DNA of 64,000 nt from Winogradskyella wichelsiae (GTDB lineage Bacteria > Bacteroidota > Bacteroidia > Flavobacteriales > Flavobacteriaceae). Shown here piece after piece: positions 7,199 through 50,105 of this stretch (the first letter of the stretch is position 1; every line of letters begins with the position of its first letter). The stretch is from assembly GCF_013403925.1 (NCBI RefSeq), contig NZ_JABFDJ010000001.1, positions 310,001 to 374,000 of the forward strand. The letters run 5' to 3'. The notes under the pieces were generated by a model. It saw only the letters and a list, made by a program, of their open reading frames with translations. It was not told where the DNA came from and made no database searches. The position numbers were made by a program, and so were the translations under genes.

Positions 7199-7203
7199 TG
7201 AAT

Positions 7204-7965
7204 TTAATTCGTAATTAAAAGGACTGTGGTTAATACAAGAGAAACAACGGAGAATAACGTTGGTAAATTACCGACAAAACCTGCACTCTTCACTTTAGGG
7301 TCACTAGGGTTAACAATGATAACATCATTAGGTTTTACATAACTAAATTCACCATCCAACCAATCTGACGAGGTCAAATCAACATGTCCAATTTTACGCA
7401 GCCCATCGGTTTCTCTAATCACGGTAATATCTTCCCGCTTTCCTGTAATGGCTAAATCACCAGCATTAGCTAGCGCCTGTAGCAATGTAATATTTTGTTC
7501 TGTAAAATTATAGGTCCCCGGACTATTGACTTCTCCAAGCACCATCACTTTAGAATTAATTAAGCGAACGTTGACCGAAGGATTCTTTAAATGCCCTTCG
7601 CTTTCTAATTTATGCTTTAAGAAATCTGAAAATGCCTGAGTCGTCATATCGGCAACGGATAACAGTCCTAAAACAGGAAAATTAATCGTTAATGTTTCAG
7701 ATACTAAATAGCCATCCAATTGCATGAGCTCAAGACTGTTTCCCCCATTATTAGTAGTGACGTTATTATAAGGAATGGTGGATTCAGGAATTAAGGCACT
7801 CACATTAATCCGTAAAATATCATTGGGCTGAATGGTAGTAGTCGTATATCGAATTTCGGTATTATGATGCTGATCGACATCTTGTAAATACAAAATTTCT
7901 TTTTTAGTAGAGCACGAAAAAACCAACATGAGACAACAAATAAATACTATAGTTTTAAACATCAT
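7204..7965 (-). CDS. Outer-membrane polysaccharide export lipoprotein (Wza-like)
   Basis: This protein forms the outer-membrane or periplasmic export channel partner of Wzc. The open frame extends to 8007, but I place the start at 7965 (MMFKTIVF...), because this gives a classical lipoprotein signal peptide with lipobox LVFSC; the earlier ATG would add 14 residues before it. Domains are the Poly_export region (about 40-130, IQPNDILRINVSAL) and an SLBB-type beta-grasp segment (VMVLGEVNSPGTYNFTE). The C-terminal hydrophobic helix FSVVSLVLTTVLLITN is seen in many Bacteroidota homologues. It immediately precedes wzc, the standard pair for Wzy-dependent export. Confidence 0.92.
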   Translation of the reverse strand: MMFKTIVFICCLMLVFSCSTKKEILYLQDVDQHHNTEIRYTTTTIQPNDILRINVSALIPESTIPYNNVTTNNGGNSLELMQLDGYLVSETLTINFPVLGLLSVADMTTQAFSDFLKHKLESEGHLKNPSVNVRLINSKVMVLGEVNSPGTYNFTEQNITLLQALANAGDLAITGKREDITVIRETDGLRKIGHVDLTSSDWLDGEFSYVKPNDVIIVNPSDPKVKSAGFVGNLPTLFSVVSLVLTTVLLITN

Positions 7966-8034
7966 ATACAGATTAGAATAAGAGAACAAATATAAGGGCA
8001 TTAACAATAGACACCAACTAATTAGCCTTAGACC

Positions 8035-9159
8035 TTATAAATTAGAGACTTCTTTAATTTTATTGGGGCGTTTACCAAATAGCCAATGGTAAACAAAATA
8101 TAAGGAATATAAGACAGTACCAGAAATTAACAAGATGACCAATTGTAAATTAATACCAAGAGCAGCAATAAAAAAAGCAATGAAAACAAGAACACCATTA
8201 ATAAGAACAACAATAGTGGTTGTCTGTCGGTGAGAAAACCCTAAACTTAAAAAGCGATGATGCAAATGGTTTCGATCGGCCGTAAAAGGGCTCTTTTTAT
8301 GGATAACGAGACGTATAAAAAAAATACGTAACGTGTCTAATAATGGAAAGAATAAAAAAGATAAGACAAGTACAGGAGAAGAATTATGATAAATCGCGTT
8401 AGGCGTCAACTCAGAATTATTAATAAACCGCACAGCAAAAACAGCAATGATAAAACCTAAGATCATAGACCCCGTATCACCCATAAACATTTTATTGCGT
8501 TTTGAAAAATTCAGATACAAAAACGGAATTAAGGCACCTACAACCGCTCCTGCCAAAACAAACATGCTAATATCGTTGTACTTGTAAAAAACATAAGAAA
8601 AACTAACAATAGCCAATAAGGCTAGAGTCCCAGCTAGACCATCAATACCATCGATTAAATTGAAAGCATTAATCACAAGGATATATACAAAAAGAGTGAA
8701 TAGTACGGAAAGCCAATAAGGCATAATAGTAACCCCAAAAATCCCTGATAAACCTATAATACGAGTATCCGTGAATATGATCAATAATAAGGCAGCTAAC
8801 AATTGCCCTATAAATTTTTTACGAGGAGATAGAATAAGAATATCATCTTTTAAGCCTAAAAAAAACAATAAAGTAATCCCTCCTAATATTAATAAAAGAA
8901 TCTTAGTATCTAATACCGCACCTATAATGGTGATAGTAACAACGATACTTAAAAACATCCCAATACCTCCTAAGTTAGGCACACTCCCAGAGTGACTACT
9001 ACGCCCCCCTGAAGAGTCCATCAAATTTTTAGATTTCGCTACATTGATGATCGCGGGATAACTTGTACTTGAAACAAAAAATGAGATACATACAGCCAAG
9101 AAAAAAAGCCAGCCTATATAATCTTCTGGATTGAAATTTTCTAGTAATTCTTTTACCAT
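8035..9159 (-). CDS. MraY/WecA-family undecaprenyl-phosphate sugar-1-phosphate transferase
   Basis: This membrane enzyme starts polysaccharide assembly by transferring a sugar 1-phosphate from a UDP-sugar to undecaprenyl phosphate. The 374 residues hold about ten or eleven membrane segments. Family motifs are SVPNLGGIGMF near the N-terminus, the aspartate pair in GLKDDILIL, NAFNLIDGIDGLAG, the GDTGSM loop, and a C-terminal HHRFLSLGFSHRQ region equivalent to the UDP-sugar-binding HIHH motif of WecA. It lies between wza and the glycosyltransferases, consistent with being the initiating transferase. The donor sugar cannot be told from the sequence. Confidence 0.92.
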   Translation of the reverse strand: MVKELLENFNPEDYIGWLFFLAVCISFFVSSTSYPAIINVAKSKNLMDSSGGRSSHSGSVPNLGGIGMFLSIVVTITIIGAVLDTKILLLILGGITLLFFLGLKDDILILSPRKKFIGQLLAALLLIIFTDTRIIGLSGIFGVTIMPYWLSVLFTLFVYILVINAFNLIDGIDGLAGTLALLAIVSFSYVFYKYNDISMFVLAGAVVGALIPFLYLNFSKRNKMFMGDTGSMILGFIIAVFAVRFINNSELTPNAIYHNSSPVLVLSFLFFPLLDTLRIFFIRLVIHKKSPFTADRNHLHHRFLSLGFSHRQTTTIVVLINGVLVFIAFFIAALGINLQLVILLISGTVLYSLYFVYHWLFGKRPNKIKEVSNL

Positions 9160-37563: not shown

Positions 37564-38679
37564 TTATTCAAAATAATTCATGGTTTTATAACCGCCTTTT
37601 TCAAGATATTGTTGTTGCTGCATCAATTTAATATCACTCTGCATCATATCTTTAACAAGATCATTTAAATCATACTGACATTCCCAACCTAACTTTTCTT
37701 TGGCTTTGGTAGCATCACCAATCAACAACTCGACTTCCGTTGGTCTAAAGTAACGTGGATCTACAGCTAAGACTTCTTTACCAATTTCTAATTGATAGTC
37801 GGGGTTATGACATTTTGTAACATAAGCTTTTTCATTTTCGCCTTCGCCTTTAAACTCAAGTTCTACACCAACTTCTGCGAAACTCATATGCACAAAATCA
37901 CGTATGCTAGTGGTTTTACCTGTAGCAATCACCCAGTCTTCAGCAGCTTCAGCTTGAAGTATCATCCACATCATACGGACATAATCTTTAGCATGACCCC
38001 AATCGCGTTGGGCATCTAAATTACCTAAGTAAAATTGATCTTGTAAGCCTAAGGCGATTCGAGATACGGCTCTTGTAATTTTTCTGGTCACAAAAGTCTC
38101 CCCTCTAATTGGGGATTCGTGATTGAATAAAATACCATTACAAGCATACATACCATAAGCTTCACGGTAATTCACGGTAATCCAATACGCATACATTTTT
38201 GCGACCGCATAGGGTGAACGGGGATAAAAAGGAGTGGTTTCTGATTGTGGCACTTCTTGAACTTTACCATACAACTCAGAAGTTGATGCTTGATAAATTC
38301 GTGTTTTTTTCTCGAGACCTAATAAACGAACAGCATCTAAAATTCGAAGTGTACCTAAACCATCAGCATTCCCAGTGTATTCTGGAATCTCAAAAGACAC
38401 AGCAACATGACTCATAGCCGCTAGGTTATAAATCTCATCAGGTTGAATTTCTTTGATCAAACGGATCAAATTGGTACTATCCGTCATATCTCCATAATGC
38501 AGAAAGAAATTTTTATGATCAACATGCGGATCTTGATACAAATGATCGATACGATCCGTGTTAAACAATGAAGAACGGCGTTTTAACCCATGAACCTCAT
38601 AGCCTTTCTTTAATAAAAACTCACTTAAATAAGCTCCATCTTGGCCTGTAACTCCTGTAATAAATGCTACTTTACTCAT
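37564..38679 (-). CDS. gmd: GDP-mannose 4,6-dehydratase
   Basis: This NADP-dependent SDR dehydratase converts GDP-D-mannose to GDP-4-keto-6-deoxy-D-mannose, the precursor of GDP-L-fucose. The 371 residues carry [20 protein letters not shown] at the N-terminus, [34 protein letters not shown] and the catalytic [10 protein letters not shown], plus [15 protein letters not shown], all typical. It is the first gene of the - strand polysaccharide run, with a candidate promoter 47-54 bases upstream. Confidence 0.96.
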
Positions 38680-38725
38680 AAAATCAAATTAAACCACTGA
38701 GGTCTATTTAGGAATAATTAAAACA

Positions 38726-38733
38726 CAAATTTA
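38726..38733 (-). promoter_or_regulatory. Candidate -7 box upstream of gmd
   Basis: On the - strand TAAATTTG matches TAnnTTTG and lies 46 bases before the gmd start. It is the only good match I found in front of the locus and may drive the sulfation and polysaccharide genes. No clear TTTG at -33 was identified. Confidence 0.5.
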
Positions 38734-39436
38734 AAATAATTGGAGGAGTATACTAAAGAATTTAAAGAATTTAAAAATCTAAATACGAATCCTATGAGAC
38801 TTACGCTTAGATTAAAAAAAACAGAAACTAAAAACCATTACATCGATAAACCGACTTAAATAACACACTAAACAACAACAAATTAAAACAACAAGACAGC
38901 ATTCCGAAAGACAAATCACATAAAAGAAATACATATTTAATTTTCAAACAACCAAAAGCGTACAGCTGAAAAAGTCATAATACGAGAAGACCAATAACAC
39001 ACGATATAGCCACTTATAAGACGGAACAAATAAATAGTTCACCTGTTAACCCTATAGATACTCCCTAGATACTCCCTAGATACTCCGTAGATAGTCCATG
39101 GCTAATGTATACGATCAACATCAATAATAGCCATAAAATAAAAGCGATCAACTAAGACACTATGAACAACCAACCCGTAATTATGAACAACCAACACGTA
39201 ATATATATTCAAAAAAAGAAAGTATACAGCTACAAAACCCATGGTTTTTAAAGAAACATCCTACAAGACCATAACTATCTAACAATAAATTACTTAAAAC
39301 ATTAATATTTATATCATTTATTACATATATTTGTATTTAAAAGTAAAGTTGAGCTATTAAAACACTCCCCCTGTTTGATATATTCAGCAACAATTTTTAA
39401 TAACATTACCCCTATTCATACCTGAGAAATATTATT
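38734..39436. other. Long non-coding spacer with two tandem repeats
   Basis: No supportable gene in about 700 bases. The + strand is strikingly A-rich. It contains an 11-bp tandem repeat TAGATACTCCC in nearly four copies at 39055-39097 and two 21-bp direct copies (39161-39181 and 39182-39202, one difference) starting TATGAACAACCAAC. It separates the divergent gmd and T9SS-protein genes, so it holds promoters for both. Confidence 0.8.
39326..39333 (+). promoter_or_regulatory. Candidate -7 box of the lamin-tail protein gene
   Basis: TATATTTG fits TAnnTTTG. It would leave a leader of about 140 bases before the chosen ATG at 39482. No convincing TTTG at the expected upstream distance. Confidence 0.4.
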
Positions 39437-39481
39437 ATGATTTCTCTTTTTATAATTTTCAACCCCAAACAAAGACCTACT

Positions 39482-42400
39482 ATGAAAAACCTTTACCTTT
39501 TATTAATTGCATTATGTCTAAACAGTATAAGCTTTGCTCAAACCACTGCTGATGCTTGGATAAATGAAATACATTATGATAACTCTGGATCTGACATAGC
39601 AGAAGGTGTAGAAATTGTTATTGCTGATATCGCAACCTACCCTTTAGATAATTGGTCTATTGTTTTATACAATGGAAGTAATGGAGTATCCTACGGAACA
39701 ATAAACTACAGCGAACTATCCACAGTAACAAGTAATGTTTCTGGTTTTACAATAGGATGGGAAGCTAAATCAGATATTCAAAACGGTGCCCCAGACGGAT
39801 TAGCTCTCGTTTACGATGGAACTACAGTCGTACAATTCCTTTCTTATGAAGGTATCATTACAGCCACAGATGGAGCTGCTATCGGATTAACTTCCATTGA
39901 CATAGGGGTACAAGAAACAAATACGAATGAAACACCGGCTGGAACATCGCTACAATTAATAGATACAGGACTTCAATATTCACATTTCTCATGGCAAGCT
40001 GATGTAACTGCTACGGCAGGTACTATAAACACAGGACAAACATTTCAACTTCCTTGCTATCCGTTACTCCAAGCATCAGACTATAACACTACCACACCTA
40101 TTGGAACAACAACAGCCACTTTAAATTGGACTATAGGAGATGGAGATAATGTTTTAGTGGTGGTAAAAGAAGGGGCTGCGGTTGACACAGATCCTACATC
40201 AGGAACAAGCTATACAGGCAATACCATTTTCTCTTCAGGAGATCAAATAGGAACAGAAAATTATGTCGTATATAGCGGTGCTTCTGCTTCATCGGTAAAC
40301 ATAACGGGATTAAGTGAAGCTACAACTTACCATGTAGCTATTTACGAGTATAACATTACAGGCACTTGTTATAACCTTCGTGAATTAACGGGTAGTTTTA
40401 CAACAAACTGTACAACACCTACAAATGTTTCAGCTCTAAATGCCATAGGTGGTGATACCACAATTGATTTAAATTGGACGAATCATGCTTGTTTTGATGA
40501 AATACTTATAGTTGCAAAAGCAACCACTGAAGTTACAGAAACACCTACAGGAGATGGATCGACCTACACCGCAAATGCTACTTTTGGTAGTGGAACGAAC
40601 TTAGTACCTTTATCACCAATAGGCTTAGGAGAATATGTTGTTTACAAGGGTACTGAAACTTCAACAACTGTAACAGGGTTAACCAATGGCACTGTTTATC
40701 ATTTTGAAGTCTTTACGCGTAAAGGTTCAACTTGGAGTGCTGGTGTTAGTACTAATGCGACACCAGATTCAGCAGCTTTGTCTAACAGCATTATGATTAC
40801 CGAAATAATGATAAACCCTGACAATTCTTCTGATACACATGGAGAGTATTTTGAAGTCTACAACACTACTGATACTCCTATAGACATGAATGGATGGATA
40901 ATATTAGATACCCATACAGATAACCACACTATAAACACGAGTGTCATTGTGCCAGCCCACGGCTTTGCTGTATTTGGACGAAATGCAACTACAACTGAAA
41001 ACAGCAATGTAACCGTAAACTACCAATATAGTAATATTTCAATTGCAAATTTTGCTGATGAAATCATTTTACTCAATGCTAATAGAACAGGAATTGATCG
41101 CGTAGATTATGGTAGTGATGCAACTTGGCCAGACCCTACCACAGGTGGGACTGCAATGATATATACAGGTAGCGATATAGAAGATAATAATGAGGGCTCA
41201 CTTTGGACGTTTGCGACAGTGTCTGAAGGTATTGATGTAGATTTCGGATCTCCGGGTAGTAATGGTACTGACCAAATAGTAGCTTATTTAGTATTTGTAA
41301 ATGACGCATGGAATACAACACCATCTGGATTAACATCTACAAGAACTGGGCTCATTAAAAGTAATGAAAACACAAGTTTCACTTTAATTAGCGCCTATCT
41401 TTTAGACGAACTCTATATTGAAGAAGGGGCCAGTTTAACTATAGAAGAAAATGCAACACTAAAATTAAATAAATTAATCTTAGAATCGACCTCAAACTCT
41501 TATTCGAGTTTAATATTAGATGGTGTATTATTAGAACTTGATGGGACCTTATTAAGTAATGTTGCATATGAGCGTTTCGTAAACTCTAATACTTTAGGAA
41601 ATGACCTAATATCAACACCGCTATTTGGTCAAACTTGGTCAGATTTTTTAAGCTCAGGTACCAATGCTGATGATTTATTCGACAATGGCGCAACAGCACC
41701 AACAACTTATGCATTTGCACCTTTTGACAAAGCAGCCGATGATTATGTCAACTACAACTCAGACACTTCTTTAACCATAGAAAGTGGAAAAGGCTTCAGG
41801 GCTGCTACAGATAGTGGTACAACATTAACCTTTACAGGTAGTGTTTTAAATACCGATGTTACAATGAATATTGAATACACTGGCGCAGTTCACCCTGACT
41901 GGAATTTAATAGGAAACCCATATCCTTCTTATATAAACATAGATAACTTTTTAAACTATGAAATTAGTGGAGGAATAAAAAACATAGATCTTTTAGAAGA
42001 TGCTTCTGGAGTCTATGGTTATGATGGAGATGCAGCTGATGGGTATAATATTATCACCTTAGCAAATTCAGCAGGGCAATTAATGACTCCTGGGCAAGGC
42101 TTTTTAATTGCTGCAGATCTTAATGATGTTGCTAGTTATGATATTACATTTACGCCAAGTATGAGAACTACGGGAAACTCGGATGACTTCATACTAGGCC
42201 GTAATGCAAATCCATTAACCTTTTTAAAGCTTAATGCTAGCACCAGTAGCAAATCATACAGTACTGAGTTTTATTTCAACGCAAATTCTACTCAAGGCTT
42301 AGATCCTGGGTACGATGGTAAAGTATTGGGAAATGTAGGTTCTAGTTTTGCATTATATTCGCATTTGGCTCAAGATAACACAGGTATACCTATGGCACTT

Positions 42401-42901
42401 CAATCCTTAAACTCAACAGATTTAACCAATGTTACAATTCCTCTTGGCGTGAATACAAACCAAGGAGAACAATTAGTATTTAGCATTGCAGAGTCTACGC
42501 TACCAAATACTGTTAATGTGTACTTAGAAGATAACGTAGCTAACGTTTCTACTCTATTAAACACTAGCGATTATATAATAACACCTAGCTCTAATTTATT
42601 AGGTACAGGAAGGTTTTACCTGCGTTTTACAGAGAGTGTATTATCTACTATAGACAACTCTTTAAATGAATTGAGTATCTACACTAATAAAGCGGATGAG
42701 ACTATTCTTATAGAAGGGCAATTATCAGAGCAAACTAATGTTTCAATTTACGATATTCAGGGGAGATTAGTTTTAACCTCTACATTAGAAATAGCACAAG
42801 GATCTCAGGCTATTAATGTTAATTCCTTAAGTCAAGGGATTTACATTATACAGTTACAAAATACATATCAAAAGAAAACACAAAAAATAATTATCAATTA
42901 A
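39482..42901 (+). CDS. Secreted lamin-tail/fibronectin-III protein with T9SS C-terminal domain
   Basis: A large exported protein, about 1139 residues. The frame is open from 39437, but ATG at 39482 starts the signal peptide MKNLYLLLIALCLNSISFAQ. The first mature module (about 20-180, INEIHYDNSGSDIAEGVEIV) is lamin-tail-like. Two fibronectin-III-like modules follow (about 195-425; TTATLNWTIGDGDNVLVVVK and TTIDLNWTNHACFDEILIVA). A clear lamin-tail domain comes next (about 435-570; IMITEIMINPDNSSDTHGEY) and then a region of unknown fold. The last 75 residues form a type A sorting domain (NVSIYDIQGRLVLT, QGIYIIQLQN) directing export and surface attachment by type IX secretion. It probably has an adhesive or structural surface role. 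A strong hairpin terminates it. Confidence 0.88.
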   Translation: MKNLYLLLIALCLNSISFAQTTADAWINEIHYDNSGSDIAEGVEIVIADIATYPLDNWSIVLYNGSNGVSYGTINYSELSTVTSNVSGFTIGWEAKSDIQNGAPDGLALVYDGTTVVQFLSYEGIITATDGAAIGLTSIDIGVQETNTNETPAGTSLQLIDTGLQYSHFSWQADVTATAGTINTGQTFQLPCYPLLQASDYNTTTPIGTTTATLNWTIGDGDNVLVVVKEGAAVDTDPTSGTSYTGNTIFSSGDQIGTENYVVYSGASASSVNITGLSEATTYHVAIYEYNITGTCYNLRELTGSFTTNCTTPTNVSALNAIGGDTTIDLNWTNHACFDEILIVAKATTEVTETPTGDGSTYTANATFGSGTNLVPLSPIGLGEYVVYKGTETSTTVTGLTNGTVYHFEVFTRKGSTWSAGVSTNATPDSAALSNSIMITEIMINPDNSSDTHGEYFEVYNTTDTPIDMNGWIILDTHTDNHTINTSVIVPAHGFAVFGRNATTTENSNVTVNYQYSNISIANFADEIILLNANRTGIDRVDYGSDATWPDPTTGGTAMIYTGSDIEDNNEGSLWTFATVSEGIDVDFGSPGSNGTDQIVAYLVFVNDAWNTTPSGLTSTRTGLIKSNENTSFTLISAYLLDELYIEEGASLTIEENATLKLNKLILESTSNSYSSLILDGVLLELDGTLLSNVAYERFVNSNTLGNDLISTPLFGQTWSDFLSSGTNADDLFDNGATAPTTYAFAPFDKAADDYVNYNSDTSLTIESGKGFRAATDSGTTLTFTGSVLNTDVTMNIEYTGAVHPDWNLIGNPYPSYINIDNFLNYEISGGIKNIDLLEDASGVYGYDGDAADGYNIITLANSAGQLMTPGQGFLIAADLNDVASYDITFTPSMRTTGNSDDFILGRNANPLTFLKLNASTSSKSYSTEFYFNANSTQGLDPGYDGKVLGNVGSSFALYSHLAQDNTGIPMALQSLNSTDLTNVTIPLGVNTNQGEQLVFSIAESTLPNTVNVYLEDNVANVSTLLNTSDYIITPSSNLLGTGRFYLRFTESVLSTIDNSLNELSIYTNKADETILIEGQLSEQTNVSIYDIQGRLVLTSTLEIAQGSQAINVNSLSQGIYIIQLQNTYQKKTQKIIIN

Positions 42902-42913
42902 CAAAACATTATT

Positions 42914-42961
42914 GAACTCATTTTAGGACCTTAAACATTGACTAAAATGAGTTCTTTATTT
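42914..42961 (+). terminator. Terminator of the T9SS protein gene
   Basis: Perfect 13-bp stem GAACTCATTTTAG/CTAAAATGAGTTC (42914-42926 and 42942-42954) with a 15-base loop, followed by TTTATTT. It isolates the peptide operon that follows. Confidence 0.75.
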
Positions 42962-43002
42962 AAACCTTTTAATAATTTAGTCAAATAATTAAATTATTTT
43001 GC

Positions 43003-43010
43003 TATTTTTG
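43003..43010 (+). promoter_or_regulatory. Candidate -7 box of the peptide/kinase operon
   Basis: TATTTTTG fits TAnnTTTG and ends 24 bases before the ATG at 43035, giving a short leader. Its position inside the longest open frame shows that the TTG at 42999 cannot be the start. Confidence 0.6.
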
Positions 43011-43034
43011 AACCGAAAATCTAGGTCTAGAACC

Positions 43035-43196
43035 ATGAAAAAAGAAAACAATACAGATAAAATCACACGTAAGGAAGCCATTTCAAAAATGGGGAAATAT
43101 GCAGCATTAACAGCCGTAGGAACCTTTGTGATTTTAAACCCACTGAAAGCACAAACATCTTCTGCACCAAATCCTGGAGGAGATCCTTTTTCTTAA
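43035..43196 (+). CDS. Short exported peptide, possible modified-peptide precursor
   Basis: A 53-residue protein not known to me by name. Residues 1-20 are charged (ITRKEAISKMGK resembles a degenerate twin-arginine start). Residues 21-36 are hydrophobic (YAALTAVGTFVILNP), and LKAQ is a plausible signal-peptidase site leaving TSSAPNPGGDPFS, a 13-residue Gly/Pro/Asn-rich tail ending in Ser. The frame is open from a TTG at 42999, but that overlaps the promoter; ATG at 43035 is preferred. The next gene starts 18 bases on and encodes an HprK-like kinase with a PqqD-like N-terminus, then comes a nucleotidyltransferase. Inference: the peptide is the substrate of these enzymes and its C-terminal Ser may be phosphorylated or nucleotidylated, by analogy with lasso peptide PadeK. 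It could instead be an unrelated small secreted protein. Confidence 0.7.
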   Translation: MKKENNTDKITRKEAISKMGKYAALTAVGTFVILNPLKAQTSSAPNPGGDPFS

Positions 43197-43214
43197 TAAG
43201 TTATACTTTCTATT

Positions 43215-44342
43215 TTGAATACAGCATTAGCACCGGTAGAACAACTACTTATAGGTGATTTTTGGGTATTGTGGTATGCCAAATCGAATACTTACAGCAT
43301 TGTCAATACTGAATTTAAACTGCTCTTAGATGAATATTTAGTTTCTGAATCTAAAACTCAATTCTTAAATTCCCTTTATTTTGAAGAGGATAAAGAACTT
43401 CAAAATAAAATTGTAGAAAACTTATTTAGCTATCTGCAAAACTGTAATAGTCCATACAGCAAATCTACAACGTCAACCTCAACAGACTTAGACAAAAGAC
43501 AACGTTACATTTCAAAACAATACAATTTTGAACACAAAATCGTTCAAGTGAACTACTGCTCAGAATTGGTTTTAAAAACCATCCACCCTTCAATTGCACA
43601 TTACTGTAATATCTCAAAATCTAAAGTTGATGTATTATTTGATGTTTACTTAAAAGAGAATCATCTACACCTTTTTAAAAATGAGGAATTAATTTCTTAT
43701 GTTCCTAAAAAGGACTATCATTATATCCAAGGTAAATTTATCATGCAATTACTTTGTGAACTTCATAACAAAACCGAAAAAGATTGGATAGGTTCGTTAC
43801 ATGGATCTACAATTACAGACGAAAACAATGCAATACTATTTGTTGGAAAATCTGGAAAAGGAAAAAGTACCTTGTGTGCTTTGCTAGCTAATACGGATTT
43901 AAAACTCTTAGCTGATGATGTTTCCCCCTTACTTTCTAAAGATCAACACATCTACTATAATCCATCTGCAATATCCATTAAACAAGGTGCTTTTAAGCTA
44001 TTAGAACCTTTAGTTAATAACTTTAATAAGTTACCAATTGTAGATTTTAATAAAACAAAAGGAAACTTAAAATATTTACCTTGCACAAAACCGAAACAAA
44101 ATCATTACCCTTGCCGTGCCATTATTTTAGTAAATTATAAACCAGAATCTAAAACATTATTAGAACCAATTTCTATAAAGACAATTCTAGAAACCATAAT
44201 TGAAGATTCATGGCTGTCACCAAAACCAAAACATGCCGAACAATTTCTAAGTTGGCTAAAGAACATGAAACTATATCAATTAACGTATAGTGATACAACT
44301 TGTGTAACCAAAGAAGTCTCAAATTTATTTAAAGAACTTTAA
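43215..44342 (+). CDS. PqqD/RRE-like domain fused to HprK-like serine kinase
   Basis: A 375-residue soluble protein. Residues 1-75 (VEQLLIGDFWVLWYAKSNTY, then SIVNTEFKLLLDEYL and IVENLFSYLQN) have the strand-strand-helix pattern of PqqD-like peptide recognition elements, where the asparagine in a LN-type turn precedes a helix. From about residue 195 an HPr-kinase-like domain appears: SLHGSTI, the P-loop FVGKSGKGKSTLCALLA near 209-225 and LKLLADDVSPL near 230-240. Related kinases phosphorylate the C-terminal Ser of some lasso precursors. The start is a TTG at 43215; no ATG lies nearby and an upstream stop at 43197 limits the frame. It is cotranscribed with the peptide gene before it and the nucleotidyltransferase after it. 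The true substrate is unproven. Confidence 0.8.
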   Translation: MNTALAPVEQLLIGDFWVLWYAKSNTYSIVNTEFKLLLDEYLVSESKTQFLNSLYFEEDKELQNKIVENLFSYLQNCNSPYSKSTTSTSTDLDKRQRYISKQYNFEHKIVQVNYCSELVLKTIHPSIAHYCNISKSKVDVLFDVYLKENHLHLFKNEELISYVPKKDYHYIQGKFIMQLLCELHNKTEKDWIGSLHGSTITDENNAILFVGKSGKGKSTLCALLANTDLKLLADDVSPLLSKDQHIYYNPSAISIKQGAFKLLEPLVNNFNKLPIVDFNKTKGNLKYLPCTKPKQNHYPCRAIILVNYKPESKTLLEPISIKTILETIIEDSWLSPKPKHAEQFLSWLKNMKLYQLTYSDTTCVTKEVSNLFKEL

Positions 44343-44366
44343 AATAATTTTTAATAGTCTACCTTA

Positions 44367-45413
44367 GTGTCGAGATATCAATCTATGACTAATTCAGCGT
44401 TAACAATTCACTATATTGCAGATATTCTAAGTTTTAAGACTTTAACAAAAACATTAGAAGAAATGCTAAGTAACCCTTCTTTTGATTGGGAGGTCATAGT
44501 TGTTCAAGGTAGTAAACACTTAGTTCTGCCTGCGCTGTATTGTAGGTTGAAGGAAAGAAATCTTCTTCATACTTTACCCACGGATTTAGTTGACTATTTA
44601 AAAGAAATAACGAACATTAATAGAGCCCGAAATGTAAGAATACTAAATCAAGTTCGCAGCATATCTAAAATTTTAAACGCTAACAATATTAACCATGTAT
44701 TTTTAAAAGGAACAGCCCTTTTAGCTTTAGGCTGTTATAAAGATAATGCAGAACGCATGGTTGGTGATATCGATATTTTAATTGAAACATCTCAAGCCCA
44801 AGAGGCCTTTAACTTATTAAAGAACTCAGGTTACAATAAGACTTCAGGATTTGCTTATGACAAAAAGGATTTTAGACACCTCGACCGTTTAATTTCGGAA
44901 GAGGAACTCGCTGCTATTGAGCTACACACCGGGTTATTAAATAAAAAAAACTGGGCATTAATAGATATACCAGGCTTTATTCAAAATAAAAGAATTGTAA
45001 ATAACATCGCTATACCCAATAAAGAAAGCTTAATAAAACACCTTATACTAAGTTGGCAATTAAATGATCATGGACATTATTATAATGCGGTAAGCCTAAA
45101 ATCTATTTATGACCTAATTTCAATAAAAACCCATGAAGAACAAGTGCTATTGGATAACTTGCTAAAATTAAAATATGCTAAATCCTACTTAGAGCTTGCT
45201 AAATTTTATTTTACAGAATTCCAAAACATAGAATCTAATAATTATATGGTGTTTAGAAAATTGATGTATGATCTTAAAACCTCTTATAAGCCAATAACTA
45301 TATTAATAAATCTCACCCTATATTGTATCCAGTATTTAGGAGAACGAATATTTCTAATTTGTACAAACAAAAGCTATACCATTCATATCCTAAAAAAAGC
45401 TTTCAAAAATTAA
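44367..45413 (+). CDS. Nucleotidyltransferase family protein (PF14907 type)
   Basis: A protein of 348 residues from GTG at 44367, or 342 from the ATG at 44385, which I consider equally likely. The diagnostic blocks are VFLKGTALLALGCY (KG motif) near 112 and ERMVGDIDILIET near 133, where the two Asp form the nucleotidyltransferase metal site, then AIELHTGLL near 185. This matches the uncharacterised nucleotidyltransferase family found beside HprK-like kinases in RiPP-type clusters. The last 50 residues are hydrophobic (ITILINLTLYCIQYLGERIF) and may touch the membrane. It ends the operon; a weak hairpin TTATACT/AGTATAA at 45529-45548 followed by T-runs may terminate it. Confidence 0.82.
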   Translation: MSRYQSMTNSALTIHYIADILSFKTLTKTLEEMLSNPSFDWEVIVVQGSKHLVLPALYCRLKERNLLHTLPTDLVDYLKEITNINRARNVRILNQVRSISKILNANNINHVFLKGTALLALGCYKDNAERMVGDIDILIETSQAQEAFNLLKNSGYNKTSGFAYDKKDFRHLDRLISEEELAAIELHTGLLNKKNWALIDIPGFIQNKRIVNNIAIPNKESLIKHLILSWQLNDHGHYYNAVSLKSIYDLISIKTHEEQVLLDNLLKLKYAKSYLELAKFYFTEFQNIESNNYMVFRKLMYDLKTSYKPITILINLTLYCIQYLGERIFLICTNKSYTIHILKKAFKN

Positions 45414-45603
45414 ACCCACAGGATTAAAAAAGATTATTAAATCGGCTATAATACACCATCTATTATTCAAATATTTAACTCTAACACAAGCACATTACAA
45501 ACACCTTAAATAACAGGAAAAAAGACAGTTATACTCAATTTAGTATAATTCTAAGCTTCTTTTATTTTTTTTTAAGTATTATTACAATAAGTTTACGGCT
45601 ATA

Positions 45604-45634
45604 TTTGTTTTATAATCCTTAAAGACTACCTTTG
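45604..45634 (+). promoter_or_regulatory. Bacteroidota promoter of the outer-membrane protein gene
   Basis: TTTG (45604-45607), a 19-base spacer and TACCTTTG (45627-45634) match the phylum's TTTG-N19-TAnnTTTG consensus exactly. The ATG lies 17 bases downstream. Confidence 0.75.
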
Positions 45635-45651
45635 GACAAAATTTTTTTAGT

Positions 45652-46236
45652 ATGAAAAAAATCATTTTACTAATATTACTCATATCGTTTAGTTTATCAT
45701 CTTTTGCTCAGAGATATAGATCTTATGAAGATTGGACTTTAAGTTTTGGTGTTGATGCTATAAATAACTTAGCATCGCGCTCGCCTTTTGAAAAACCTGG
45801 AGATTGGAATTTCGGAACGCCTATTTCAGCAGCAATTGAATACAGTTGGATTGAAAATTTTGCAATAGAACAATCGATTACGATTAATAGTTTTACTGGT
45901 GATCCTAATATCGATAATATATTTCCTGAAAAAGATTACAATTATCTATCATTAGATACCCATGCTAAATATTATTTTAAAGAACTTATTTTTGGTCGCG
46001 GTAGAAACATGAGTTGGTTTAACATATACGCTGATGCGGGTTTAGGTTACTTTCATATTGATAAAGGTAATGTATCGGCAAATATTGGAGCTGGTGTTTT
46101 ATTTTGGCTAGACAGAAACCAAACAATTGGAATTAGAGCACAAACAATTGCTAAATTTACAGGATTTAGCACTTCTGAAGTTGGTTACGACAATAATCAT
46201 TATCAATACCACTTACAAGCCGTAATAAGATTATAA
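45652..46236 (+). CDS. Outer-membrane beta-barrel protein
   Basis: A 194-residue protein with the signal peptide MKKIILLILLISFSLSSFAQ (cleavage after AQ). It is followed by alternating amphipathic strands such as DWTLSFGVDAINNLA, ISAAIEYSWIENFAIEQSIT, the THAKYYFKELIF strand, DAGLGYFHIDKG and YQYHLQAVIRL with a C-terminal strand ending in Leu. This is the pattern of small OmpA/OmpW-like eight-stranded barrels. Function unknown. It has its own near-consensus promoter and a strong terminator, so it is monocistronic. Confidence 0.82.
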   Translation: MKKIILLILLISFSLSSFAQRYRSYEDWTLSFGVDAINNLASRSPFEKPGDWNFGTPISAAIEYSWIENFAIEQSITINSFTGDPNIDNIFPEKDYNYLSLDTHAKYYFKELIFGRGRNMSWFNIYADAGLGYFHIDKGNVSANIGAGVLFWLDRNQTIGIRAQTIAKFTGFSTSEVGYDNNHYQYHLQAVIRL

Positions 46237-46254
46237 GTTTATAATTATATATAT

Positions 46255-46290
46255 AAAAAGAGGTTCACAAATGTGAACCTCTTTTTTTTT
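46255..46290. terminator. Bidirectional terminator
   Basis: Perfect 14-bp stem AAAAAGAGGTTCAC/GTGAACCTCTTTTT (46255-46268 and 46273-46286), loop AAAT, further T-run to 46290. It serves the + strand outer-membrane gene and probably the convergent peptidase gene. Confidence 0.92.
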
Positions 46291-46345
46291 ACAATACAAT
46301 GTAATATGCCCTTTTAAAAGTTATAGAACAACTAAATAAACTGTT

Positions 46346-47203
46346 CTAATAACCTGCAAACTTAAAATTAAGCATGTGTTTCATTTGTTTATATAACTCT
46401 GGAAATTGTGCTTTAAATTGTGACGGTGTCTCGATAAAGTTTTCAAGCAAAACCGCAAAAAATTCGTACTGATTAGTGTATGCATATGTTCTAAAATATT
46501 TTGAGGCAATTAAGCGTTGTCTAACCTCTTTATTGTGCTGCAAATATTGAGTTAACTTTTTAAATCCTTTATTAAAAATTAAACTACTAATATCATTACT
46601 TTTCGAAGCACTAAGGTGAATGGCATGTCCAAATTCATGAATTCCGAGATTTAGGTTATCATCTCCAATTTTATAACCATGTTCAAAATCTTCCCAAGAG
46701 AATACGATGGCTTTATACTGCGGATTCATTTCCCCTTTATGGTAGGTATTATGACTTGTAGAATAATAGACTTTTGGATATATAATTACAGTTTCAATAA
46801 GATTTAAAAGATATTTCTTAAAACCAAACGTTAGCATTATAGCAGTCGCTGCAATAGTAACTCGCATCTGTTCTGTTACTTCTAATTCATTATGGCCAAC
46901 AAATTCTTTCTCTTTTATAAATGTAGCGACTCTATGCTCAAAATACTGTTTATTTTTATCATCTAATTGTCGATAAAATATGCTTTCTTGTTTTAAAATA
47001 GCACATTGTTGGAGTGTTAATTTATTTCGATTAAAATAGATATGAGTAAAAACTGGTTTATTAAATAATGAGGCATAATAAAACTGAAAAATTAAAGCAA
47101 GACGATATAAGATAAAGAGCGCAATTATAAAAATCCCAATAGGAACTACATAATTAGAAATCATTTCTAATTCAAAAATCTCTTGCTCTGTTTTTAACTC
47201 CAT
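46346..47203 (-). CDS. MtfA/M90-family zinc peptidase-like membrane protein
   Basis: A 285-residue protein with one N-terminal membrane helix (VVPIGIFIIALFILYRLALI) and a soluble domain bearing the zinc motif HEFGHAIH near residue 195. ATAIMLTFGFKKYLL upstream and YAYTNQYEFFAVLLENFIE downstream (third ligand Glu) fit the MtfA family (PF06167). E. coli MtfA acts on the Mlc regulator, but no such partner is visible here. It lies alone between a terminator and glutamate dehydrogenase, on the same strand as the latter but separated by that gene's terminator. Confidence 0.87.
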   Translation of the reverse strand: MELKTEQEIFELEMISNYVVPIGIFIIALFILYRLALIFQFYYASLFNKPVFTHIYFNRNKLTLQQCAILKQESIFYRQLDDKNKQYFEHRVATFIKEKEFVGHNELEVTEQMRVTIAATAIMLTFGFKKYLLNLIETVIIYPKVYYSTSHNTYHKGEMNPQYKAIVFSWEDFEHGYKIGDDNLNLGIHEFGHAIHLSASKSNDISSLIFNKGFKKLTQYLQHNKEVRQRLIASKYFRTYAYTNQYEFFAVLLENFIETPSQFKAQFPELYKQMKHMLNFKFAGY

Positions 47204-47249
47204 ATTATTTAAATCACTTAGTTGTAAAACTAAACAAATAATTCAGTGC

Positions 47250-47285
47250 AAAAAAATACCGCTCAACTTAGATGTTGAACGGTAT
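47250..47285 (-). terminator. Terminator of glutamate dehydrogenase gene
   Basis: On the - strand, arms ATACCGTTCAAC and GTTGAGCGGTAT (one mismatch) with a 6-base loop are followed by TTTTTT at 47255-47250. Confidence 0.85.
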
Positions 47286-47321
47286 TTATATAAATTTAAA
47301 GGCATTAAATGAGCCGAATGA

Positions 47322-48626
47322 TTAAGGAAAAATACCACGTTGAATATATGCTTTTTCAATACGCTGAATCGCGATACAAAAAGCTGCTGTTCTAAAGTCA
47401 ACGTTTTCATTTTCTGAATACGTATAAACTTTATCGAATGAACCCTTTAATTTTTTACGTAGCTTGTCTAAGACCTCTTCTAAATGCCAAATCTCACCAC
47501 TTCGGTTTTGTAGCCATTCAAAATAACTTCCAATTACACCACCAGAATTACAAAGGATATCTGGAATAATAACCACACCTCTATCTAACAATATTTTTTC
47601 ACCTTCAACATTTGTTGGTCCGTTAGCTCCTTCTGCGATTATCTTCGCTTTTATATGCGGTGCATTTTCTTTTGTAATTTGATTTCCTAATGCTGCAGGA
47701 ATACAAATATCACAATCAATTGAAAAGAATTCATTTTTAGCTACCAATTGAGATTTAGGAAAATCCATAACCGTACCCCCCTTCTCTTGCGTGTAATTAA
47801 AAAGACTTTCTACATCAATACCATCTTGATTTTCGATACTACCTTTTGCATCTTGAACGCCTACTAATTTTGCGCCATCTTGTTCTAAGAAAACAGAAGC
47901 CCAATAGCCCACATTACCAAAGCCCTGAACAATAAATCGTTTACCATTTAAGTCCATATTATTTTTATCAGCCCAAAACTTAATGGTTAAATAAACACCA
48001 AAGCCTGTAGCTCTATCACGTCCTTCTAGTCCACCACTACCATCGGGCTTACCCGTTACGACATGTTGATTTGCACTACGTTGCGCAGGCGGCCTTGTAC
48101 TCATATAAGTATCAGCAATCCATGCCATAGTTTGGCTATTGGTGTTAACATCTGGTGCAGGTATGTCATGTTCTGGACCAATATTATCTGCTAGAGCAAA
48201 CGTAAAACGTCTTGTGATACGCTCTAATTCTGATTGCGAATACAGTGAAGGATCTATTTTAATCCCTCCTTTGGCACCACCATAGGGTAAGCCTGCTAAA
48301 GAAGTTTTCCAGGTCATCCACATAGCTAATGCTCTTGCGGCATCTAAATCTACAGTAGCATGGTAACGAAGACCACCTTTATAAGGTCCTAAAGCTCCAT
48401 TATGCTGAACACGATACCCCGTAAAGACTTCCACATTACCGTTGTCCATTTTTACAGGAAAGTTTACTAAAATCTCATTATTAGTGATACTTAATATTTT
48501 CCTGATATTGGGATGTAAATCAATATGATCTGCAGCACTGTTAAACTGTTCCATGACGTTATCCATCATTCCTTTTAAAGGCACAGCTTTCTTTTTATTC
48601 TTTAACTCTATTTTTGAATTTTCCAT
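47322..48626 (-). CDS. Glu/Leu/Phe/Val dehydrogenase family glutamate dehydrogenase
   Basis: This NAD(P)-dependent enzyme interconverts glutamate and 2-oxoglutarate plus ammonium. The 434 residues fit the hexameric family. Evidence includes YRVQHNGALGPYKGGLRYH, the catalytic Lys region LPYGGAKGGIKIDP, the DIPAPDVNTN segment, the Rossmann GFGNVGYWAS and ANGPTNVEGEKILLDRGV. Substrate preference for glutamate over branched or aromatic amino acids is inferred from overall similarity, not proven. Cofactor choice cannot be decided. A -7 box TATTTTTG lies 42-49 bases upstream. A possible alanine dehydrogenase remnant is encoded nearby on the other strand. Confidence 0.93.
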   Translation of the reverse strand: MENSKIELKNKKKAVPLKGMMDNVMEQFNSAADHIDLHPNIRKILSITNNEILVNFPVKMDNGNVEVFTGYRVQHNGALGPYKGGLRYHATVDLDAARALAMWMTWKTSLAGLPYGGAKGGIKIDPSLYSQSELERITRRFTFALADNIGPEHDIPAPDVNTNSQTMAWIADTYMSTRPPAQRSANQHVVTGKPDGSGGLEGRDRATGFGVYLTIKFWADKNNMDLNGKRFIVQGFGNVGYWASVFLEQDGAKLVGVQDAKGSIENQDGIDVESLFNYTQEKGGTVMDFPKSQLVAKNEFFSIDCDICIPAALGNQITKENAPHIKAKIIAEGANGPTNVEGEKILLDRGVVIIPDILCNSGGVIGSYFEWLQNRSGEIWHLEEVLDKLRKKLKGSFDKVYTYSENENVDFRTAAFCIAIQRIEKAYIQRGIFP

Positions 48627-48667
48627 TTATGCGTATCTTATTTTTAGAATTACATATAATTATCGCG

Positions 48668-48675
48668 CAAAAATA
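48668..48675 (-). promoter_or_regulatory. Candidate -7 box of glutamate dehydrogenase gene
   Basis: TATTTTTG on the - strand, matching TAnnTTTG, 41 bases before the start codon. Confidence 0.45.
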
Positions 48676-48756
48676 ACAAATTCCTAAATAACAAGTCTTT
48701 TTTTAACAAATAAGTAATTTATATTTTCATGAGTCGATTATAGTTACTAAAAATGA

Positions 48757-48852
48757 AAGCTTCTAAGGCTCCATATATTGAAAGAACTAGCAAATAAAGG
48801 CTTTAAAGATGCTTTAAAAACAAACGAAGTACTTAAGGTCATTTCATTTAAA
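48757..48852 (+). pseudogene. Possible remnant of an alanine dehydrogenase C-terminus
   Basis: In the 227-base spacer between two - strand genes, the + strand reads KELANKGFKDALKTNEVLK from 48781. One base out of frame just before it lies APYI. Alanine dehydrogenase C-terminal regions contain a PYI(L)xLANKGxKxAL-type stretch, so this looks like a frameshifted, truncated relic. It is not an intact gene. The similarity is from memory and covers only about 20 residues. Confidence 0.35.
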
Positions 48853-48853
48853 A

Positions 48854-49954
48854 CTATGCTTTATTTTCCGAATGCTTTTCATTTGCCATGTAAATCGTTC
48901 GGGTAGGAAATGCGAGTCCTATTCCTTCACTATCAAAACGCTTTTTAGCACTTTCATAAACATCACATTTTAGGGTAAACGAATTACCAAAACTTGATGA
49001 CCAAGCCCAAGCCCTAATCGTTATTGAAGAATCATTAAATTTAGTTAAAGCAGTTTTAACAATAGGTTTACCATCTGACTTATCTAATGCTGTTCTATTA
49101 TCATAAATTAAAGGGTGATTTTCACATTCTTGTTGAAGAATCTTTTTAGCCAAAGTAATATCACTATCGTAAGTAATGCCCATTTCTATATGTTCGCAAC
49201 ACTTCAGCTCTCCTAAATCATAGTTAATTAACTTCTCTTTATTAATTACAGCATTAGGAATGACAATCATTTTGTTTTCAAAATTTCTAATGACTGTATG
49301 ACGTAATGTAATATCGGTAACTGTACCAACCATAGTATCTGTTATCTTAATAACATCACCTATTTTAAAAGGTTTAAACGAGACTATAAAAATACCACCC
49401 ACCAAATTAGATAACGCTTCTTGTGAAGCAACACCTGCAATAAGAGCTAAAACACCTGCACCGCCTAACGCTGTTTGGGCAACTCCTTTTAAAGAAGGAA
49501 AAGCCATTAAAACAAAAAGCAGGCCAATGAAACAAATAGCAAAAACAGAAATATACCTAAGAAATTTGTAGGTTGTAGGATCAAAGTCGTGTGTTACTTT
49601 TTCTGAAATACGATGTTTAAACCATAAATTACAAAGCGTAGCAGATATTATAGTGACCACTGTAACAATACCAATGTAACTGGCTAATTTAAAATAACCT
49701 AATAAAACCTCATCCTTATCTCGATCTACAAAAATAGCACTCAACGCAATAATACCTAATACCAACCACAAAAGATTAAGCGTCAGTTTCACCATTTTCA
49801 TAGATCTTACTGGCGATTCAGGTAAACGATTAGATTCTTTTTTAATCAACCACTTAACAATAAACTTTGTGAGAAGTCGAAGAATGATCACTGACGAAAT
49901 TACTATCGCTACATATATTATAAGCGGTTTATAAGCTTCTATAAATTCTGTCAT
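48854..49954 (-). CDS. MscS-family mechanosensitive channel
   Basis: A 366-residue inner-membrane channel that releases solutes on hypo-osmotic shock. It has four to five hydrophobic segments (residues about 10-35, 55-75, 90-110, 130-150) and the pore helix LGGAGVLALIAGVASQEALS with the alternating Gly/Ala pattern. NLVGGIFIVSFKPFKIGDVI and GTVTDITLRHTVIR then enter the MscS beta domain. The C-terminal vestibule is present. It is probably monocistronic; no promoter consensus was recognised upstream. Confidence 0.92.
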   Translation of the reverse strand: MTEFIEAYKPLIIYVAIVISSVIILRLLTKFIVKWLIKKESNRLPESPVRSMKMVKLTLNLLWLVLGIIALSAIFVDRDKDEVLLGYFKLASYIGIVTVVTIISATLCNLWFKHRISEKVTHDFDPTTYKFLRYISVFAICFIGLLFVLMAFPSLKGVAQTALGGAGVLALIAGVASQEALSNLVGGIFIVSFKPFKIGDVIKITDTMVGTVTDITLRHTVIRNFENKMIVIPNAVINKEKLINYDLGELKCCEHIEMGITYDSDITLAKKILQQECENHPLIYDNRTALDKSDGKPIVKTALTKFNDSSITIRAWAWSSSFGNSFTLKCDVYESAKKRFDSEGIGLAFPTRTIYMANEKHSENKA

Positions 49955-50105
49955 ATATTATATTAGTTAAGAAGTCTGTACATATTAAAACAATTTACAA
50001 ACACATTAATTGAACTACTAAATTATACAAAGTACTATTAATAGTCCTCAATAAATGTATCAATAAAAATAACGTTTATTAAAAAATAATATTCACAACT
50101 TAATG

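Follow-up and report, generated by a model that had tools for sequence, protein, structure and literature searches.

Winogradskyella wichelsiae carries, within the 64,000-nucleotide stretch of DNA analysed here (contig NZ_JABFDJ010000001.1, positions 310,001 to 374,000; hereafter the window), a gene for a 53-residue peptide followed directly by genes for an HprK-like kinase and a nucleotidyltransferase, and the question raised by this arrangement is what the two enzymes do to the peptide and which process the peptide serves. A sequence-only reading of the locus had seen in it a minimal system for an exported, phosphorylated or nucleotidylated peptide. The word minimal proved misleading: the parts number at least four, and the gene upstream, which encodes a cargo of the type IX secretion system (T9SS), had been overlooked. 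Peptide, kinase and one class of T9SS cargo belong together genetically, and the locus is read here, at a probability of roughly one half, as encoding a system that modifies a peptide in the service of one class of T9SS surface proteins.

Joint occurrence of peptide, kinase and a T9SS cargo class

The main survey covered 397 genomes of the same family with a three-peptide profile, a kinase profile and a profile of the cargo module described below, the best few candidates per genome being scored for kinase and module. Peptide relatives were found in 42 genomes (approximately 10%), 40 of them strong, and strong matches to the kinase profile in 36. Peptide and kinase occurred together in 35 genomes, the peptide only in five, the kinase only in one and neither in 356 (Fisher 1e-43, a value that treats genomes as independent and overstates that independence because relatives share ancestry). 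Peptide matches with E above 1e-3 (G355, G626) and kinase matches of at most 39 bits (G521, G660, G426) were left out of these counts, which retain a peptide with an internal stop (G436), three stop-containing kinases (G340, G358, G434) and one, in G333, that is split over two frames. The peptide is present in 35 of the 36 kinase genomes also where the two genes are unlinked, which rules out chance neighbourhood as the explanation of the cassette. Since the cassette had led to the loci behind the hidden Markov models (HMMs A4, A5 and A6), the members of these models score high by construction; independent evidence is provided by strong modules that are not adjacent, by peptides newly found in G206, G256 and G085, and by absences in second species.

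As a test of the prediction that peptide and kinase go together, four kinase genomes with no adjacent peptide in view were searched, giving six peptides in G206, three in G256, one at a contig end in G085 and none in G062, which is 72% complete and has its kinase cut by a contig end. Eight of the nine peptides in G206 and G256 follow a module cargo directly or via a second peptide. A peptide search of four genomes with module or kinase alone (G340, G357, G608 and G410) found none; G340, the kinase-only genome, is 82% complete in 340 contigs, and a larger peptide profile found none there either. The peptide-only genomes (G421, G550, G558, G570 and G590) are 82–92% complete, and in three of them the peptide gene looks decayed. 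Two stops interrupt the matched stretch in G570, and in G558 (L086) the ITRKEAI motif is in frame with no ATG, GTG or TTG between it and the preceding stop. In G590 (L183, G590:C3:650000-665000) the peptide and a module cargo both lie in fragments at 6655-8238 and no kinase was found, which looks like a concerted decay of the system. Peptides occurring without the enzymes, which the sequence-only reading had named as a finding that would speak against it, are thus largely absent, with 35 of 40 peptide genomes having the kinase and three of the other five a decayed-looking peptide. Joint gain or loss has probably occurred several times, because five genera (g117, g126, g300, g268 and g269) each contain one species with peptide, kinase and strong module and another with none.

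In a phylum-wide draw of 238 genomes, a strong peptide was found in only four, all of the same family, plus one weak match (E 0.001); the kinase scored 447–470 bits in the same four genomes and at most 54 bits in the other 52 of 56 matching genomes. An order-wide draw of 296 genomes gave 15 matches to the window kinase at E 0.001, seven of them strong, one of these (G085) from another family. On sequence grounds the peptide is a real gene: purifying selection was seen in all four pairs compared, with ratios of nonsynonymous to synonymous change (dN/dS) of 0.04–0.09, a fifth pair being left out for its unequal length. The window peptide and that of a congener (G163) differ at nine nonsynonymous and 18 synonymous positions (dN 0.077, dS 0.82), and the three other pairs gave dN/dS of approximately 0.04–0.08. 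This selection, together with recurrence in 42 of 397 genomes, places the peptide beyond chance.

The upstream gene of the window (39437..42901, + strand) encodes a T9SS type A cargo of 1154 residues with a Lamin Tail Domain (LTD), fibronectin-like parts and a C-terminal sorting domain (CTD), its translation probably starting at ATG 39482, which opens a signal-peptide-like stretch. The CTD (42677..42898, + strand; residues 1081-1154) matches TIGR04183 at 47.4 bits against a cut-off of 23, as expected of a T9SS type A domain; Por_Secre_tail (PF18962) gave 43.4 bits against 27 and Pfam LTD 61.6 bits. No other neighbour accompanies the peptide as constantly as such cargos do, and distance from the kinase does not change this. 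Of 53 peptides with the upstream gene in view, 45 lie directly behind a same-strand module-type T9SS cargo, two more are separated from one by a second peptide, and the remaining six (L068, L069, L081, L089, L095 and L174) have other positions. The kinase is next downstream in 26 of 58 peptides, and cargo and kinase are both adjacent in 23. T9SS CTD matches number 14–85 per genome in 11 genomes, an estimated 1–2% of genes; assuming 3% cargo genes, the chance probability of the 38 of 44 cargo-adjacent peptides in the first set is 8e-52.

The 38 cargos of the first set differ in their N-terminal parts and have in common a module of approximately 340 residues just before the CTD (41600..42628, + strand, in the window), for which a Pfam search of the window module gave no family. 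With the CTD removed, each cargo matches 36 or 37 of the other 37, mainly over the module stretch. The best module score per genome is at least 171 bits in 43 genomes and at most 137 in all others. Within ten kinase genomes, full-length strong modules reach at least 255 bits, the weak class at most 117 and two partial copies 151–154, and partial matches of 145–165 bits in kinase genomes G611, G303, G358, G072 and G206 were not counted as separate modules. A tree was built of a selection of 64 modules, 24 peptide-adjacent and 40 others, in which 42 strong rows (including one duplicate, from G558, and one kinase-negative genome, G357) and four intermediate ones fall on one side of a 100/99 branch. 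The 18 weak rows on the other side come from kinase-negative genomes (11) and from six kinase-positive ones (7). An ordinary pre-CTD domain is ruled out by the per-genome score gap and this branch, and the module is, as judged from the sequences, a clade of its own, termed clade S; no catalytic-looking residue specific to it stood out. All 36 kinase genomes have a strong module, as do 7 of the 361 others, namely the peptide-only G558 and G550 and five with neither gene (G357, G608, G410, G567 and G624). The Flavobacterium johnsoniae T9SS substrates RemA (8gl6) and RemZ (8gl8), distant solved relatives of the clade-S module, reach 106 and 98 bits with the module profile; they score like the weak module clade, which is found also in genomes without the system, whereas the cassette goes with the separate clade. 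RemZ is described in PMC10994853 as a Type A substrate and RemA homologue.

The constancy of the cargo bears on a doubtful alternative, in which the product would be a secreted phosphopeptide natural product akin to the linear polyphosphorylated peptides (LPPs) described in 2026, acting as a signal or bacteriocin, with the module cargo only co-regulated or serving as its receptor or processing protein. The enzyme set is that of the LPPs as presented in PMC13381572, an HprK kinase and an NTP transferase with a peptide and no cyclase, and the short, Pro/Gly-rich, genus-variable tails would suit such a product. Against it, the neighbours of at least 90 residues include no recurrent exporter or dedicated peptidase, and the cargo is the neighbour that recurs most, its clade being absent from most genomes without the system. 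Moreover, all six peptides of G072 and five of six in G206 lie immediately behind a module cargo and have tails that are much alike, which fits a partner of the cargo better than a signal.

The peptide, its conserved serine and the two enzymes

The peptide family comprises 58 open reading frames (ORFs) from the fetched loci and follows a pattern of a short polar start, [IM][TSDN]RKEA[IL]xK, a hydrophobic GKYAALTAxGTFxxLNP, KAQAxS and a tail. The window peptide (43035..43196, + strand, ATG start) has ITRKEAI, the hydrophobic segment, an AQT/SS site and the Pro/Gly-rich tail TSSAPNPGGDPFS. When positions are counted from the LNP proline, 57 of the 58 have a Ser at one fixed site, which corresponds to Ser43 in the window (codon 43161..43163, + strand), the proposed phosphorylation site. 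The lone member without it, from G558, has Tyr instead, and the kinase was not found in that genome. The sequence-only reading had placed phosphorylation on the C-terminal Ser, in keeping with the Ser that ends the window peptide and with the precedent of paeninodin. This part did not hold, as 54 of the 58 relatives end otherwise, the congener G163 (Asn) among them, an outcome that the reading itself had listed as one that would count against it, and the contrast of four terminal with 57 internal Ser rules the site out by conservation; we regard it as highly improbable.

The peptide is probably exported, to judge from its sequence, and, by analogy with the systems described below, probably phosphorylated, so that the earlier proposal of an exported and modified peptide stands in these respects, as it does for the paeninodin-type enzymes and the lack of a cyclase beside them. 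In 55 of the 58 peptides the AxA-like positions, set at a constant spacing ahead of the conserved Ser, are occupied by small residues, in keeping with cleavage. These residues speak against a rather unlikely alternative, namely that the hydrophobic segment stays uncut and the peptide is an inner-membrane regulator or chaperone of cargo production or secretion, the kinase being a sensor that acts on it. The majority of conserved columns lie in the N-terminal ITRKEAI and the hydrophobic GKYAALTA rather than in the tail, which would fit such a regulator, as would the kinase type, HprK proper being a regulatory kinase; a periplasmic Ser, however, would be within reach of a cytoplasmic kinase only before export.

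A strict twin-arginine translocation (Tat) signal was rejected: in the 53 peptides that matched the motif (the other five did not), the first Arg is always retained, and the residue after it is Lys in 49, Asn in three and Thr in one. An NCBIfam scan of the peptides gave only weak best matches (E 0.035, formate_TAT, and 0.063). The tails are short, mostly 7–13 residues after the Ser, rich in Pro and Gly, and differ between genera. Long tails of 42–53 residues, partly of low complexity (for example PGKPGKPGK), were seen in L072 (8680-9150 and 10169-10456), L070, L082 and L094. G072 and G206 (L071, L078, L083, L097 and L168-L171) have six peptides per genome with much the same tail (SPExPGxGF), eleven of the twelve immediately behind a module cargo, so that tail type seems to follow genus rather than cargo. 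In L181 of G436, a stop lies in the peptide frame just before the Ser-bearing tail (2376-2520), between a module cargo and an intact-looking kinase, which could be due to sequencing error or to decay. In G412 (L068 3080-5000), five tandem ORFs of 119 residues, forming one cluster at a spacing of 391 bases, lie upstream of a peptide gene that stands alone.

The kinase (43215..44342, + strand, 375 residues, P-loop GKSGKGKST) opens with a TTG that is found in the same place in G163. It is a member of the HprK fold. In sequence comparison its best matches among solved structures are HPr kinases, and a model of moderate quality matched HprK/P and phosphoenolpyruvate carboxykinase best, at low TM-scores. 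The best NCBIfam match is HprK_rel_A (TIGR04352, HPr-rel-A), which matches all 31 family kinases (best E 1.4e-23); the window kinase is related to it but, at 53.4 bits against a curated cut-off of 200, is not a member by score. H196, K217, D234 and D235 are invariant in the 31 kinases and, equated by motif order, would be the His-Lys-Asp-Asp of the lasso kinases, which PMC9266682 reports as essential by mutagenesis. The HprK part of the earlier assignment as a PqqD-HprK-like kinase is borne out, and the PqqD part is weakly supported. PF05402 (PqqD) matched two of ten N-terminal segments below the cut-off (E 0.0045 and 0.058) and the window segment not at all; it was absent among the best 25 of 39 Pfam families matching the 31 full kinases at E 0.1, and PqqD was not among 29 PDB matches of the N-terminal profile. 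The N-terminus was modelled as strand-strand-helix-helix-helix, with a predicted local distance difference test score (pLDDT) below 50 over most of the stretch; the first approximately 95 residues are possibly a domain resembling PqqD or a RiPP recognition element (RRE).

The nucleotidyltransferase-fold protein (44385..45413, + strand, LKGTALL...RMVGDIDIL) matches PF14907 (NTP_transf_5) at 110.8 bits against a gathering score of 31.2, as the sequence-only reading had named it. Its frame runs from GTG 44367; the start is probably ATG 44385, since relatives align from that Met. A PF14907 gene adjoins the kinase in 32 of 39 kinase loci, or 33 with L077, where the order is reversed. Of the remaining six, L180 and L181 reach the end of their contig there. 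In G597 and G346, loci of two genera (L085 9046-12085 and L177 1270-3310), the gene that begins 4–5 bases after the kinase is not PF14907 but a sugar-nucleotidyltransferase-like one (named from its translation), a possible alternative for the second step. In L085 (also L130, metagenome-assembled genome AG-319-B23), an aminoglycoside-phosphotransferase-like gene, likewise named from its translation, follows it.

These genes bear on a distinctly unlikely reading, in which kinase and nucleotidyltransferase act on the cargo, or on the sugar that joins type A cargo to lipopolysaccharide, with the peptide in a helper role. The sugar-nucleotidyltransferase-like gene right after the kinase in two genomes would suit this, as would GDP-mannose dehydratase-like genes upstream in the window, both named from translations. 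PorU has a role in the link of type A cargo to the lipopolysaccharide A-LPS. The anchoring proceeds through a linking sugar, given in PMC13086638 as 2-N-seryl, 3-N-acetylglucuronamide in Porphyromonas gingivalis, which also speaks for this reading. Against it stand the conserved Ser, changed in a kinase-less genome, the strict co-occurrence with the peptide and the precedent of peptide kinases.

Proposed pathway and relation to known systems

The reading preferred here, peptide modification devoted to a class of T9SS surface proteins, can be set out as a series of steps. The cytoplasmic kinase would bind the N-terminal part of the peptide and, as its family and the conservation suggest, phosphorylate Ser43 rather than the C-terminal Ser53. 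The PF14907 enzyme would then add a sugar or nucleotidyl group to the phosphoserine, as PsmN suggests; by analogy with PsmK/PsmN and LppK, phosphorylation should precede transferase addition to the phosphate. By means of its hydrophobic segment the peptide would cross the inner membrane, where signal peptidase would cut between AQA and xS (in the window between AQT and SSAPNPGGDPFS), releasing a tail of approximately 12 residues whose second residue is the modified Ser. The modified tail would work with type A cargos bearing the clade-S module, as a bound or covalent cofactor, an anchor or a folding partner, and one peptide could serve several cargos. In the simplest reading of the genetic link the tail would have the module as its target or partner, be it in the role of ligand, anchor, cap or regulator. 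More tentatively, a ribosomal peptide that is modified in the cytoplasm and exported apart from the cargo might become the cofactor, covalent cap or anchor of dedicated T9SS surface proteins, as an alternative or addition to the PorU-lipopolysaccharide link. A peptide decorated with phosphate and a sugar or nucleotide would, if this is true, be a new principle in type IX secretion, and a small modified peptide and two enzymes would be added to the needs of some T9SS cargos. The role is directly testable, because the system has a strict genetic partner and a definable T9SS cargo class.

Several observations weigh against this pathway. An intact-looking Ser-bearing tail without a kinase is present in G421 (84% complete) and G550 (82%). 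G357, G608, G410, G567 and G624 have a strong or intermediate module with neither kinase nor peptide detected, and three of them (G608, G410 and G624; L199-L201) are single-contig genomes, 99–100% complete, that have only the strong-clade module; these are either losses of the enzymes or modules working without them. Strong module cargos outnumber peptides in some genomes, with ratios of 9:1 in G163, 6:1 in G337 and 2:1 in G000 and G574; the others counted were 1:1 in G030 and G505, 1:2 in G412, 7:6 in G072, 6:6 in G206 and 7:3 in G256. This excess excludes a one-to-one partnership, and given the ratios one peptide probably serves several cargos in some species. Four kinase loci (G597, G346, G434 and G358) have no PF14907 neighbour although the flank is in view, and G434 and G358 show no sugar-nucleotidyltransferase-like gene either; the transferase step is therefore not general in the form proposed. 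The kinase model is mediocre (mean pLDDT 57) and that of the nucleotidyltransferase useless (pLDDT 35). Among characterised enzymes, LppN is reported to have had no detectable effect in a heterologous host (PMC13381572), and PMC9266682 allows for PsmN acting as a nucleotidyltransferase, with a host glycosyltransferase acting after it.

The closest counterpart is the LPP system (lppA-K-B-S-D-N, Paenibacillus alginolyticus), which as presented in PMC13381572 shares with the window a linear precursor, an HprK-like kinase, an NTP transferase and the lack of a lasso cyclase. There, the HprK-like LppK phosphorylates Ser3 of the core but none of the variants S3A, S3T and S3Y, and the leader is taken off by a signal-peptidase-like enzyme; the window counterparts of a phosphorylated Ser few residues into the core and of leader removal are those proposed above. 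Features given in that source for LPPs, which are known mainly from Bacillota, are a discrete RRE, an archaeal-type signal peptidase, an MsbA-like exporter and a YxxPxVLxHQ leader, whereas the window peptide has an ITRKEAI...GKYAALTA leader and is tied to a T9SS cargo. For a discrete RRE, no other same-strand ORF of at least 40 residues was found in 42999-45652, the relatives' ORFs below 90 residues and the rest of the genome being outside this search. No recurrent neighbour cluster corresponded to the signal peptidase or exporter, as judged by clustering and translations rather than HMMs, and the leader motif YxxPxVLxHQxIxFETxxS was not seen in the aligned peptides.

In the paeninodin and pseudomycoidin systems (PadeK; PsmK/PsmN), described in PMC9266682, an HprK-like kinase with His-Lys-Asp-Asp is likewise paired with an annotated nucleotidyltransferase. 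In pseudomycoidin, a Ser is phosphorylated by PsmK, and its subsequent decoration with hexoses requires PsmN. In the paeninodin type the modified residue is the C-terminal Ser of a lasso precursor, and a cyclase and B proteins are present (PMC9266682), whereas the conserved Ser of the window family is internal. Lasso B proteins or a macrolactam cyclase were not seen among the ORFs of window 38000-50000, nor as a recurrent neighbour cluster, judging from translations rather than HMMs. The cassette is thus neither an LPP as defined nor a paeninodin-type lasso system, and resembles the modification half of both. The new element relative to known HprK/PF14907 peptide modification is the link to T9SS, and no paper joining T9SS with such peptides was found in the literature searched, most subscription journals being outside that search. 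In SynChlorMet, the HprK-like protein ScmC (TIGR04249) also sits in a peptide cassette; 18 of the 31 family kinases match it (best E 2.6e-4), and no radical SAM enzymes were seen in the cassette described here. In L131 (8695-12452, Bacteroidota bacterium BWSM_53), an HprK-like kinase lies beside a 135-residue lasso-B-like and an asparagine-synthetase-like protein, both named from translations, which would show the form of a Bacteroidota lasso cluster with such a kinase.

Layout of the locus in the window

The tandem, + strand order in the window is T9SS cargo, hairpin, promoter-like box, peptide, kinase and nucleotidyltransferase, with 18 bases from peptide to kinase and 24 from kinase to nucleotidyltransferase frame. 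The succession from terminator to nucleotidyltransferase agrees with the sequence-only reading in position and spacing. The cargo gene ends in a terminator hairpin (42914..42954, + strand) with a perfect stem of 13 bp (−16.4 kcal/mol, z −5.7), a stability equalled by none of 200 shuffles; a generic hairpin scan did not list it because its loop of 15 nt exceeds the scan range of 3–8. The box TATTTTTG (43003..43010, + strand) before the peptide is conserved between the window and G163 and is taken to match the Bacteroidota −7 box consensus, and a sigma-70 scan of the window gave 23 sites against 23.1 expected by chance, with no excess. Directly after the nucleotidyltransferase, at 45652-46236, lies a gene for a small outer-membrane beta-barrel protein (OMP_b-brl, below the cut-off). 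Of 27 cassette loci, 14, the window included, have a gene of this type in that position; it may be part of the system or mere synteny, an ftsZ-like neighbour also being common to many of the loci.

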